From the IMG/VR virus record IMGVR_UViG_3300009314_000060, positions 1-32,259 of that record: a DNA stretch of 32,259 bases, one strand, 5' to 3'. Below, piece by piece: positions 4,683 to 8,452 of the stretch. Made by a program: the position numbers and the translations under genes. The stretch's first letter is position 1; each line of letters begins with the position of its first letter. The DNA is from a virus. Below the pieces are notes generated by a model, which was not told the origin of the DNA, did no database searches, and worked only from the letters and a program-made list of their open reading frames with translations.

Positions 4683-5720
4683 TCAGCCCCATAGCTTCAG
4701 CTGTCTGGTTTCCTGGTCTATGCGGTTTACTGCCATCTCGCAATACTCGGCTGACAGTTCAATCCCTATGAATTGCCGATCATGCCTATATGCCACTATG
4801 CCGGTGGTGCCGGACCCGAAGAAGGGGTCTAGGACCGTGCCGCCCTTGGGTGATCCTGCCAGGACGCATGGCTCTATGAGCTTGGGTGGGAATGTGGCGA
4901 AGTGGGCCTCTGGAAACGGGTGTGTAGCGACGGTCCAGACTGTGCGCTTGTTGCGGGTCCCGTCAACAGCCAATTCGTGCCGCTTTTGCAGATTCTTGAC
5001 ACTGCCGCCCTCGGATTGCGGTGCTTGCCCGGTTTTGCCCTCACTTGCGACCGTGTAGCGTGTATTTAATCCCGCCGCCATCTCGCGCAATCGCCTATCG
5101 CGTTCATAGGCTTCCTGTGGCTCTGTGATCGCATCCCCATCATACCAATACCTCTGGCCCTTGCTCATCAGAAAGATATACTCATGCGCCTTTGTGGGTC
5201 TGTCTGTGACGCTCTCGGGCATCGGGTTTGGCTTCGACCAAATAATGTCCGATCGCAGATACCAGCCATCGGCTTGCAGGGCGAACCCAACACGCCATGG
5301 AATGCCGATTAGGTCTTTAGGTTTGAGGCCACTCTTCTTAAGATCGGACTTGTTCCCCCGATGCAGCTTATACGCCCCGGCCTCCTTCAATGTGGCATGG
5401 CCCTCGAGGGAATTGTCTCCACCGCCAGGGTTAAAGCATGACCCTTTGCCAGATGCATACGAATCCCCCAGATTCAGCCACAGCGTTCCATCATCCCGCA
5501 GCACACGCCTGACCTCTCGGAATATCTCGACCATGTGCTTGACGTATAGCTCGGGGGTGGGTTCCAGGCCTAGCTGCCCCTCGACATTGTAATCCCGCAA
5601 CCCCCAATACGGTGGGCTGGTGATACAGGTCTGCACCGATGCGTCCGGCAGCTCTCGGAGCACCGATAATGCGTTGCCCTGATACAGACATCCGTGCCTG
5701 GTTTTATAATACGGCTTCAT
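4683..5720 (-). CDS. DNA methyltransferase, N4-cytosine/N6-adenine (beta-class)
   Basis: This 345-residue protein transfers a methyl group from S-adenosylmethionine to an exocyclic amino group. The catalytic motif IV is TSPPYWGLRDY at about residues 34-44. The cofactor motif I comes near the C-terminus as VLDPFFGSGTTG (about 295-306), which is the beta-class order of the N6_N4_Mtase family. SPPY suggests N4-cytosine, but adenine cannot be excluded. The middle (residues 90-250) is the target-recognition region. The ATG at 5720 overlaps the preceding stop as ATGA. No cognate restriction nuclease is seen, so it is probably an orphan anti-restriction methylase. It lies in the same operon as a Mom-like protein. 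Confidence 0.95.
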   Translation of the reverse strand: MKPYYKTRHGCLYQGNALSVLRELPDASVQTCITSPPYWGLRDYNVEGQLGLEPTPELYVKHMVEIFREVRRVLRDDGTLWLNLGDSYASGKGSCFNPGGGDNSLEGHATLKEAGAYKLHRGNKSDLKKSGLKPKDLIGIPWRVGFALQADGWYLRSDIIWSKPNPMPESVTDRPTKAHEYIFLMSKGQRYWYDGDAITEPQEAYERDRRLREMAAGLNTRYTVASEGKTGQAPQSEGGSVKNLQKRHELAVDGTRNKRTVWTVATHPFPEAHFATFPPKLIEPCVLAGSPKGGTVLDPFFGSGTTGIVAYRHDRQFIGIELSAEYCEMAVNRIDQETRQLKLWG

Positions 5721-5929
5721 AACGGCCAATCCCTATTATCATCCCATTCAACATCGATTTGCCGGCCTGAGTACGAGCCGACCGCGTGTTGGCAGAGGAC
5801 ACAGTATTTCCGTGGCATCCCTCTGCCGGTCCAGTACAGCCGCAAGGCATGGATCTTACCACAGCGTGGGCACAGGCACCTGGTAGGCTTATCCAGGGAC
5901 TTGACGGCTTCCTGCTGGATTGTTGGCAT
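5717..5929 (-). CDS. Small zinc-finger protein
   Basis: This 70-residue protein has a CLCPRCGK cluster and, 20 residues later, YCVLCQH, which fits one four-Cys zinc site. The start chosen is ATG at 5929, which has AAGGGG upstream; a longer frame would start inside the neighbour without a site. It overlaps the upstream gene by 41 bases and the methyltransferase start by 4. Function is unknown; DNA binding in the modification block is plausible. Confidence 0.8.
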   Translation of the reverse strand: MPTIQQEAVKSLDKPTRCLCPRCGKIHALRLYWTGRGMPRKYCVLCQHAVGSYSGRQIDVEWDDNRDWPL

Positions 5930-6097: not shown

Positions 6098-6763
6098 TCA
6101 GAACATCCTCACCTGTTTATGAAACTCGGCCGATGCGTCATAGCGTTTGGTTTCGCCCTTGGGGTATGGCAACACCGGATATCTCAGAGCCTGGCGCATA
6201 TCCTTCTTTTCTGATTTGGTGCCCAGGAAATAGTGATACCTGTGCTTTGGTTTAGCTTGGTAGCATTTACCACCCCGAGCCAAAACATAAGCTTGTTTGT
6301 CTTCTTTACTGTGGATGCCCTTATGGTCTAAGGTTCTCTCGTTCAATCGATCGCCATTCAAATATAGTTCAACCGATCCACCCCCCAGACCCGTATAAAG
6401 CCAGTTTGTGGCTTGGTAGATATATCCTATGTGACCCTGGTTCGGATCCGCATAGCTAACCAAAATTGAGGGTCTAGGGAGCAATTTGAACGATCCCGCA
6501 ATCAGAAACGATGCCGCGTTTCTGGTATCCGATTCAACTATCAAACGATTCAGTTCCAATACACATCCGATATACTGTTGGCCGCAACATTTACAGGGTT
6601 GCGGTGTTGACGGCCTACCATAGCTAACCACGCCGACCACCACACCAGCCTCAACTAAAGCCACCGCATACATCACCTGAGGCAGTTTGTGAGCATAATG
6701 CTTCTGCAGGATCCACGGTTTAGCTTCCTGGTAGGATATGCGCTCGACCGTGTAGCCGTCCAT
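6098..6763 (-). CDS. Mom-like DNA adenine hypermodification protein
   Basis: This 221-residue protein resembles the Mom family (named for phage Mu Mom, which converts adenine to N6-carbamoylmethyl-adenine and shields DNA from restriction). Recognisable pieces, in order, are ILQKHYAHKLPQVMYAVALV, VGVVSYGRPS, a Cys pair CKCCG, VLELNRLIVESDTRNAASFL, ILVSYADPNQGHIGYIYQAT, and the C-terminal KHRYHYFLGTK with PVLPYPKG. The fold of the family is acetyltransferase-like. The start is ATG at 6763 after GAGGGG; the longer frame lacks a site. It is two small genes upstream of a DNA methyltransferase, so the two may modify the genome together. Assignment is by remembered family pattern, not a search. Confidence 0.78.
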   Translation of the reverse strand: MDGYTVERISYQEAKPWILQKHYAHKLPQVMYAVALVEAGVVVGVVSYGRPSTPQPCKCCGQQYIGCVLELNRLIVESDTRNAASFLIAGSFKLLPRPSILVSYADPNQGHIGYIYQATNWLYTGLGGGSVELYLNGDRLNERTLDHKGIHSKEDKQAYVLARGGKCYQAKPKHRYHYFLGTKSEKKDMRQALRYPVLPYPKGETKRYDASAEFHKQVRMF

Positions 6764-6773
6764 CTTGACCCCC

Positions 6774-7322
6774 TCAGAATGGTATATCATCCATGCTCAT
6801 GGTGCTGGCCACCGACTTGATCATGTCACCCACAGAATGGCTGAAATGGACCTGTTCCCCGGGCTCAAGGGTGCCTGTCTCGAGAGTGTAGCCATCCTCC
6901 AGCAGCTGATCCTTGGTAACGTACTTACCCCTGTGGTGGGTGCTGAGGTGCTGTTTCCAGTTCTCGCACTTGGCACAGCGGCCGCAATACTGGAACGTGC
7001 AACCGGCTTCCTCATTGTGCTTGCTGAACCAGATAAGCCCCTTGCCGTGGCATTCATCACAGGGAACCGGCTTGAACACCTCTCTTGCCTCTGGGTGCCG
7101 TTCCTGCCACTTGATCCACCAGTAATGGAAGGCTTTGCCCAGGTTCCGGGGTATGGTGTCATAGTCGGATTCCATCTGCTCCTGGATCCACGGTATTGCC
7201 TTGTCAGGGATATGCTTGACCCGGTTGAATACCAGGGTCAGCGATCGGGGTGACGGTTTGCGGTTGTAATTGAAAAACTCGTACAGGTCAGCCACGGTGG
7301 ATTGGAACAGTTCATTTCTCAT
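6774..7322 (-). CDS. Replication-block protein with DnaJ-like zinc cluster
   Basis: This 182-residue protein has a helical N-terminal half (residues 1-80; SPRSLTLVFNRVKHIPDKAI and FHYWWIKWQERHPE). A cysteine cluster follows: CDECHGKG at 88-95, then Cys at 108, 113, 116 and 119. The CxxCxGxG unit is like the DnaJ zinc centre. It overlaps the initiator gene by 4 bases (ATGA) and has GAGGATATACC upstream. Proteins of this shape often follow DnaD-like initiators in phages, where a helicase loader is otherwise found. A loader-like role is only an inference. Confidence 0.85.
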   Translation of the reverse strand: MRNELFQSTVADLYEFFNYNRKPSPRSLTLVFNRVKHIPDKAIPWIQEQMESDYDTIPRNLGKAFHYWWIKWQERHPEAREVFKPVPCDECHGKGLIWFSKHNEEAGCTFQYCGRCAKCENWKQHLSTHHRGKYVTKDQLLEDGYTLETGTLEPGEQVHFSHSVGDMIKSVASTMSMDDIPF

Positions 7323-8119
7323 TGGTATATCCTCTTGGTGTAAGGTACGTTGTTCTTTTCACAGTAGGCCGCATACGGTTCATAGCCGTCATTGTCCAGG
7401 ATCTGCTTTGCGATCTCTTTCAGGCGTTTCTGGTCGCCATTGTTTCCCCGGGGTGGCCAGAAGGTTTTCCACCCGTTCATGATGGCAGCCTCGATCACTT
7501 CCTGTTGTGAGCAGTCCTCATCGGCCATCACCTTTTCCAGTTTGCCTATGGCCAGCTTTTCTGCAAAGGGTGTCATGGGTGACTTGATTCTCTGACGCAT
7601 GGTTTTGTATTGTTTCCACAGATTGGCATCAAGCCAATCCGGATATGTATATGTTTCTTTCTTCTTATCATTCTTAACATTCTTATCATTCTTGTTTATA
7701 GTGTCGACACTCTGTATGTTCCTTGTATGTTCCTTGTATGTTTCCTTGGATGTTACGTAGTTCGATGGGTCTTGGTATTGATCGTAATTACATATGGTTA
7801 TTAGCATACCCCGTGTCAGCTTCTCTGTATGCACCATCGTCCGTTTCTTTAGCCATCTCATGGCGGTTTCGCAGTCATTCTTGGAATAGGTCTGTTTTCG
7901 CCACCCAACCATCCAATGCAGACCCTCTTGAATGTCTCTATAGGATCGGATGCATTGACCTCGGGCAATGTCTCGGCCTGAATATCGTGCGGGCTCATGA
8001 TTGGCTTCCATGATTAACCAGTCCCAGATTTCTCTGACGTGCGGTGGTGCATGTGCGATCTCAGATGATTGAATCTTGCGGGCCTTCAGATAATAGCCCC
8101 CAGGTATGTCGGCCGGCAT
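7319..8119 (-). CDS. Probable replication initiator (DnaD/O-like)
   Basis: This 266-residue protein has a winged-helix-like N-terminal half (about 1-110; VREIWDWLIMEANH, YSKNDCETAMRWLKKRTMVH, GMLITICNYDQYQ), as in phage DnaD/replisome-organiser proteins. A low-complexity Asn/Lys linker follows at about 130-155. The C-terminal region WLDANLWKQYKTMRQRIKSP then GWKTFWPPR is a pattern seen at the end of many phage initiators. It should bind the phage origin and recruit the host replication machinery. The ATG at 8119 follows GAGGGG. Its leader holds a large RNA structure at 8139-8239. The linker is AT-richer than its surroundings. Confidence 0.85.
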   Translation of the reverse strand: MPADIPGGYYLKARKIQSSEIAHAPPHVREIWDWLIMEANHEPARYSGRDIARGQCIRSYRDIQEGLHWMVGWRKQTYSKNDCETAMRWLKKRTMVHTEKLTRGMLITICNYDQYQDPSNYVTSKETYKEHTRNIQSVDTINKNDKNVKNDKKKETYTYPDWLDANLWKQYKTMRQRIKSPMTPFAEKLAIGKLEKVMADEDCSQQEVIEAAIMNGWKTFWPPRGNNGDQKRLKEIAKQILDNDGYEPYAAYCEKNNVPYTKRIYQ

Positions 8120-8138
8120 GGTCTACCCCTCAAAAGCA

Positions 8139-8239
8139 AAATAGGACTGTCTTGACGGCTCTCGGGTTAGCGTAGCACCAAGGGTGCAGAGCCGCCAAAC
8201 AATCCTATTTCAATCTTGAACAGTATCATATGCTAACCC
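8139..8239 (-). promoter_or_regulatory. Structured RNA leader or origin element before the initiator gene
   Basis: On the minus strand, 8210-8188 pairs with 8162-8139 over 23 base pairs with one bulged base. The only two non-Watson-Crick pairs are both G-U in this strand but would be A-C mismatches in the other, which suggests the RNA sense. Inside, 8187-8183 pairs with 8179-8175 (GCACC-CTT-GGTGC), stacked on the stem. GGGTTAGC (8239-8232) is complementary to GCTAACCC (8171-8164), an a-b-a'-b' order that would make a pseudoknot. The 3' arm ends about 7 bases before the Shine-Dalgarno of the initiator gene. Alternatively it is an origin element. A TATGAT hexamer (8230-8225) is a possible -10. 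Confidence 0.6.
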
Positions 8240-8257
8240 TACCCCACCAATACCCCA

Positions 8258-8452
8258 TCAGGATGGGGGTGTCAAGAGCTTGTGGACCTCAATCACCGGT
8301 AGTTCCTCTAATCCACAGAACGTCCAAAGGGCCGTGTCACCGTTCCGTGCAACAACACGGCCGGTATCACCCACTGTCAAATATTGAACCGGTATTGTGC
8401 GCAGTATGTCCAGCCCCTTCCTGGTTGTCTCACACTCGATTGTGATCTTCAT
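8258..8452 (-). CDS. Small protein, unknown function
   Basis: This 64-residue protein is predicted to be beta-rich (MKITIECETTRKGLDILRTI, then VGDTGRVVARNGDTALWTF). The ribosome site is weak (AGG before ATG at 8452). It is the last gene before the structured leader at 8139-8239. Its stop codon sits in a perfect dyad, CCCCATC-CT-GATGGGG (8269-8254). The family is not recognised. Confidence 0.7.
   Translation of the reverse strand: MKITIECETTRKGLDILRTIPVQYLTVGDTGRVVARNGDTALWTFCGLEELPVIEVHKLLTPPS

Follow-up and report, generated by a model that had tools for sequence, protein, structure and literature searches.

A structured RNA leader with the layout of C4 and P4 CI antisense RNAs upstream of a DnaD-like phage initiator gene

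The initiator gene and its leader

The window, by which we mean the whole stretch of DNA analysed, is a 32,259-base virus record in which all recognised genes lie on the minus strand, with the terminase at one end and the portal at the other; it looks like a near-complete permuted genome. One of the genes encodes a protein of 266 amino acids that matches both the DnaD-like helicase loaders of PHROG 2514 (E = 2e-21) and the O-like replication initiation proteins of PHROG 678 (E = 9e-16), and that we refer to as the initiator. Its AlphaFold model is confident over the N-terminal 110 residues, and a Foldseek search of the PDB with this model returned no strong match, only weak ones (E > 0.03), among them some to DNA-binding proteins (TubR and CodY, for example). 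An N6/N4 DNA methylase (4683-5729, minus strand) and a Mom-family protein (6098-6790, minus strand; Pfam PF25680, 1e-32) are encoded two to four genes downstream of the initiator and are likely to modify phage DNA. No lysogeny genes and no integrase were found in the window.

Upstream of the initiator, the minus strand at 8139-8239 holds an element that begins with a short segment, a, and ends with the 3′ strand of a long closing stem, P2. In the order in which the minus strand is read, the features are:

8270..8275 (-), −35-like hexamer TTGACA, seen in the sequence and paired with TATTGG in a promoter scan
8247..8252 (-), weak and uncertain −10-like hexamer TATTGG, from the promoter scan
8232-8239 (-), segment a, GGGTTAGC, target-like, at the 5′ end of the leader and complementary to a′
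8211..8231 (-), linker of 21 nt between a and P2, from the sequence and the RNA fold
8188-8210 (-), 5′ strand of P2, AAATAGGATTGTTTGGCGGCTCT, from the sequence and the RNA fold
8175-8187 (-), hairpin hp1, GCACC-CTT-GGTGC, from the sequence and the RNA fold
8164-8171 (-), segment a′, GCTAACCC, antisense, complementary to a
8139-8162 (-), 3′ strand of P2, AGAGCCGTC-A-AGACAGTCCTATTT, with the bulged A at 8153, from the sequence and the RNA fold
8126-8131 (-), Shine–Dalgarno-like GAGGGG of the initiator gene, from the sequence
8117-8119 (-), initiator ATG, from the sequence
7319..8119 (-), initiator gene, DnaD-like helicase loader or O-like replication protein of 266 amino acids

A preliminary description of this DNA had read P2 directly from the sequence as a stem of 23 bp with one bulge, with hp1 stacked on it and about 7 bases between the stem and the ribosome site, and all of this holds (the gap to GAGGGG is 7 nt, and that to the ATG about 20 nt). 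It had counted two exceptions to Watson–Crick pairing; there are three, every one a G-U pair on the minus strand. After hp1 come TAC, a′, a single G and then the 3′ strand of P2, which is followed by the T-rich TGCTTTTG; the 3′ part of the linker is able to pair with the bases just 5′ of the start codon. The RNA fold of 8120-8260 has an energy of −52.5 kcal/mol (z = −3.6), and none of 200 shuffles folded as well. The 8-base crossing helix between a and a′, which the preliminary description had also proposed, is present but marginal in the window phage taken alone (p of about 0.04-0.13 by test), which is weak evidence; the helix is significant because of the relatives described below.

The signals for expression that flank the element are weak in the window. 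TTGACA and TATTGG, at a spacing of 17 nt, reach a score of 8 in the promoter scan (p = 0.16 by itself) and would place the start of a, 7 nt past TATTGG, at about +1; a consensus promoter scan of the element region gave no acceptable promoter. The U run amounts to TTTT twice, and a terminator scan of the region found none. An inverted repeat, CCCCATC-CT-GATGGGG (8253-8269, minus strand), lies between the two hexamers and is a possible operator.

Recurrence among initiator relatives

Several protein searches yielded about 60 distinct relatives of the initiator on virus and genome contigs, and the region upstream of each start was read. About 20 of the 60 have the same architecture in the same place, in sequences that are unrelated and not alignable by letter. 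The element stands upstream of the initiator start in L003, L014, L033, L046, L054, L058, L060, L061, L062, L063, L066, L070, L083, L084, L085, L114, L128 and L131, and in L008 and L038 it lies ahead of an HNH gene that itself sits between element and initiator. The count is 21 with the window, or 20 if L063 is left out; the crossing helix of L063 is weak, and in both L063 and L107 the stem is present with an unconvincing crossing helix. Free-standing HNH endonuclease genes recur directly upstream of this initiator family (L008, 517-836; L038, about 1190-1490; L013, L016, L030 and L078).

From 5′ to 3′, the fullest form reads promoter, a1, a short spacer (AAA in four phages), a2, linker, 5′ strand of P2, hp1, 5′ strand of a second hairpin (hp2), a2′, 3′ strand of hp2, a1′, 3′ strand of P2, U run and start codon. 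The loop of the second hairpin (a2′) and the strand that follows it (a1′) are complementary to a2 and a1 upstream on the same strand. The two-segment form was found in the following relatives:

L114, a1 TATGCAA, a2 CGACTAG
L061, a1 GCTCAA, a2 GAATGAAA
L058, a1 TGCCTA, a2 CACGAATA
L070, a1 ATGCAAC, a2 TCACTAC
L003, a1 TTGCAGA, a2 GTATATGA
L084, a1 AACAAAA, a2 TGATGAA

The window shares with L066 and L083 a reduced form that has hp1 and one antisense segment (8 nt in the window) and no second hairpin, and about seven elements consist of the stem and an antisense loop only. Across elements, a lies 4-37 nt from the stem core and P2 extends to 0-30 nt from the start codon. In L003 (about 4807-4835) and L033 (about 1822-1865) there is an additional strong hairpin between the promoter and segment a. 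L128 has two copies of the segment AAATCAAAAAAAT (around 1360-1500), one upstream of the stem and one immediately ahead of the start codon; the latter is a possible second target like seqC of P4.

Our helix sets were partly curated by eye except in an unbiased test, which started from the 60 initiators and retained, without using the crossing helix, the loci where a strong hairpin ends no more than 45 nt from the start (n = 18). The 60 nt upstream were then searched for a complement to the apical region of the hairpin, and the result was compared with dinucleotide shuffles. The combined p for these 18 loci is 7.8e-15, to which the window contributes only p = 0.04. For the curated set of 20 the upstream complement gives a combined p of 4.6e-16, a value that is inflated by selection, as that for the 18 hairpin-picked loci is not. 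A downstream complement, equivalent to the second target seqC of P4, was not found in the curated set of 20 (p = 0.59), and this acts as a built-in control for the upstream test.

The mismatches in the stem indicate which nucleic acid is at work, given that a DNA palindrome is expected to show G-U and A-C positions at 1:1. With the stem chosen on Watson–Crick pairs alone and mismatched positions tallied on the initiator-sense strand, G-U outnumbers A-C by 58 to 13 over 20 phages, and phage by phage 16 lean to G-U and none to A-C. L038, where the automatic stem caller took the a/a′ helix instead of P2 (as it also did in L046 and L131 in one run), is excluded from this count. The corresponding ratios are 1552:1646 for control hairpins taken from these loci and 17:20 for relatives that lack the element. 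The surplus of G-U on the sense strand therefore means that the element acts as RNA. Segment a is preceded by matches to sigma-70-like promoters (combined p = 2e-10), which reach 12 of 12 in L008 and 11 of 12 in seven others, strong −35/−10 pairs are located as in the window in most relatives, and in most phages a starts 6-39 nt past the −10. A U run of at least five on the 3′ side of the stem is found in 15 of the 21 elements, whereas 5 of them have an A run on the 5′ side (p = 0.02); L046 and L038 have no U run. The element is a sense-strand RNA leader of the initiator operon, as the preliminary description had supposed from the G-U pairs of the window.

That description had also looked to homologous leaders for covariation, and had taken relatives without the stem as evidence against its reading. 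All helices are kept, with entirely different letters, in about 20 phages; about two thirds of the initiator relatives have no element, but mostly have another gene, in some cases HNH, directly upstream. The cultured relatives (phages StB20-like, Diva and pCB2047-A) likewise have a gene directly upstream and no space for a leader. On a tree of the initiator N-terminal domain the element is scattered across both main branches, and the well-supported branches force at least six changes of its presence. The leader looks like an optional module that has been lost or exchanged many times. A search of 380 genomes of the phylum of L019 found no initiator other than that of L019 itself, a nucleotide search of phage records gave no match to the element, and no relatives of the window leader near enough to show single compensatory changes were found. 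When the loci were scanned on both strands with a descriptor of the element, the top scores lay mostly at the initiator operon, at one site per phage; scores below about 60 often arise by chance and are non-specific.

Comparison with known RNAs

Comparison with Rfam by covariance model, which the preliminary description had advised, returned nothing at the element. The cut-offs were gathering and E ≤ 10 for L003 and the region of the window, and gathering for the other element loci. The C4 model (RF01695) gave no match at E ≤ 10 in the window and 19 element phages. The earlier statement that the element belongs to no recognised RNA class thus holds for Rfam scores but not for architecture, which is that of the C4 and P4 CI antisense RNAs.

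The satellite phage P4 halts transcription of its own replication genes through pairing of the CI RNA with seqA and seqC (PMC4825925). The CI RNA scores 74.9 bits against RF01695, for which membership is set at a covariance-model score above 45 bits. Its closing stem, GGTAGCTCAGGCGGGG/CCCCGTCTGGGCTATC, is accompanied by the hairpins CAGCC-TCCG-GGCTG and CCGG-TATCCTGTGAAG-CCGG, which are followed by TTCTCAC and then the closing strand. Upstream, GTGAGAA and TTCACAGG are the complements of TTCTCAC and CCTGTGAA, respectively, and follow each other as a1 and a2 do. P4 CI and the element in its fullest form share a long closing stem, a first hairpin, a second hairpin whose loop is antisense, a further antisense segment ahead of the closing strand, complementary segments upstream (b then a in P4: GTGAGAA, then TTCACAGG) and a place in the leader of a replication operon, here ahead of a DnaD-like initiator with promoter-like sites upstream. 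In the window, a is the counterpart of seqA, hp1 that of the C4 tetraloop hairpin, and a′ takes the position of the single-stranded antisense segment that precedes the closing strand in C4.

The differences are also clear. The element has no sequence similarity to P4 CI; its target lies about 20-40 nt away, compared with about 150 in P4; there is no downstream target of the seqC kind; the closing stem carries its own U run in most elements, unlike P4 CI; the replication gene downstream is a different one; and the window form, unlike P4 CI, has no hairpin 2. The full C4 layout, with two internal hairpins, an a′ loop and a b′ strand, is seen in about five relatives (L003, L014, L058, L061 and L114), the others being reduced. 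Across 20 elements, antisense segments match a target in the same operon transcript, as in C4. Because the C4 covariance model matches no element phage, we do not file the element as a member of C4; it has the C4/CI layout and probably works in a similar way. No letters are shared, and the likeness may reflect either descent or convergence.

The C4 RNA of P1 and P7 comprises three stems together with an a′ loop, on which target specificity depends, and a b′ loop, and it is cleaved by RNase P (PMC5320573); its antisense segments provide phage-specific targeting in P1 and P7 (PMC5320573, PMC12197685). The fold is like that of the element, but C4 of P1/P7 targets the antirepressor mRNA around the ribosome site, whereas the element finds its complements upstream within its own leader, and the gene concerned encodes a replication initiator. 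IsrK of Gifsy-1, a leader-derived small RNA that shares its promoter with the downstream phage mRNA, has been described as a structural homologue of the P4 seqA RNA (PMC4825925). We found a match to RF01394 (IsrK) in P4; IsrK corresponds to the target side only, without an internal fold of the C4 type. In the plasmids pIP501 and pT181, rep attenuation sets initiator expression through a leader terminator and RNA pairing, much as proposed below for the phage leader, but the plasmid regulator is a counter-transcript made from the opposite strand, and the phage leader carries its antisense segment within itself. An HDV-like ribozyme, which is a nested double pseudoknot, was considered and rejected: the order of helices is similar, but only one G lies between P1′ and P2′, so that the strand with the catalytic C (J4/2) is absent; Rfam gave no HDV-like match at E ≤ 10.

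Possible control of initiator expression

On balance, we lean towards the view that the element is a compact, sequence-divergent antisense module of the C4/P4 CI type, with its target in cis, that attenuates expression of the initiator. We infer attenuation and action in trans from the layout, as follows. P2 and its U-rich 3′ side would stop transcription or hide the ribosome site unless prevented from forming. On a nascent transcript, a could pair with its own a′ and so compete with P2, allowing RNA polymerase or the ribosome to proceed; if a and a′ paired first, P2 would be hindered, as its 3′ strand could form the stem only by winding round a closed-loop strand with its own end still in the polymerase. 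If instead the a′ of a second leader RNA molecule occupied a, P2 would form and the initiator would not be made. More phage copies and more leader RNAs would then mean less initiator, a negative feedback on copy number analogous to that in P4, where CI RNA on seqA stops transcription into the replication genes. The preliminary description had suggested control of initiator translation, and so of phage copy number; control of initiator expression is still the best reading, and an inferred one.

We consider it unlikely, although not remotely so, that the pseudoknot and stem act on their own message only, by hiding the ribosome site or shielding the 5′ end from decay, perhaps with the initiator bound, and with neither antisense action in trans nor termination. 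T4 gp32 binds a pseudoknot in its own leader. Segment a is close to where the transcript is inferred to begin, P2 comes close to the start codon, the lower stem of the window pairs near the Shine–Dalgarno-like site, and a and a′ are near enough to each other for cis pairing to be favoured. Against such a leader are the sense-strand U runs in 15 of the 21 elements, the precedent of P4 CI, and the two elements that precede an HNH gene and not the initiator; from these two, the controlled unit is the operon.

Less probable still is a small stable phage RNA of another function, such as a type III antitoxin-like or primer RNA, with its own terminator and the initiator merely downstream. Type III toxin–antitoxin loci have the order promoter, structured RNA, terminator-like run and gene, and a promoter, a structured RNA of about 100-130 nt, a U run and a gene are found here; however, there are no tandem repeats, the gene encodes a member of a replication protein family that is also found where the RNA is absent, and the high-scoring examples in the loci scanned sit at the initiator operon. 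With no repeats and a replication protein as the gene, we reject a type III toxin–antitoxin RNA specifically.

The preliminary description had left room for part of a replication origin, and long inverted repeats adjoining an initiator gene could in principle be DNA hairpins or initiator binding sites. We now regard this as highly improbable: it fails on the one-sided G-U count, the promoter upstream and the U run downstream share one orientation, and an HNH gene separates element from initiator in L008 and L038. A chance hairpin, to which the marginal crossing helix of the window alone would point, is practically excluded by recurrence in about 20 phages (p of about 1e-15).

To return to the antisense module, we tentatively suggest, as a possibility we would put somewhat below even, that a large class of C4/CI-type elements free of shared sequence, whose target and antisense segments share a single short leader, governs how much initiator is made in many environmental phages that have no lysogeny genes. 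Every phage would have a pairing code of its own, covariance models would miss the class, and the target–antisense pair would serve as a topological switch on a terminator. In the element records, which may be incomplete, a tyrosine integrase was found in 0 of 16 (the figure is 6 of 26 for relatives lacking the element; p = 0.07), a serine recombinase in one, and a ParA-type ATPase above the cut-off in none. These records thus support neither a temperate or plasmid-like life cycle nor a role in prophage immunity.

RNA control of replication by the route of P4 is, to our knowledge, known from few phages, and a P4-like layout is present in about a third of the DnaD-like initiator operons sampled here. 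Homology-based RNA searches miss the element because it has no conserved letters; a long stem beside a start codon, with a loop complementary to the 5′ end of the transcript, provides a rule by which more could be sought. The leader offers a testable hypothesis for how phages with no recognisable repressor may limit their replication or exclude related phages.
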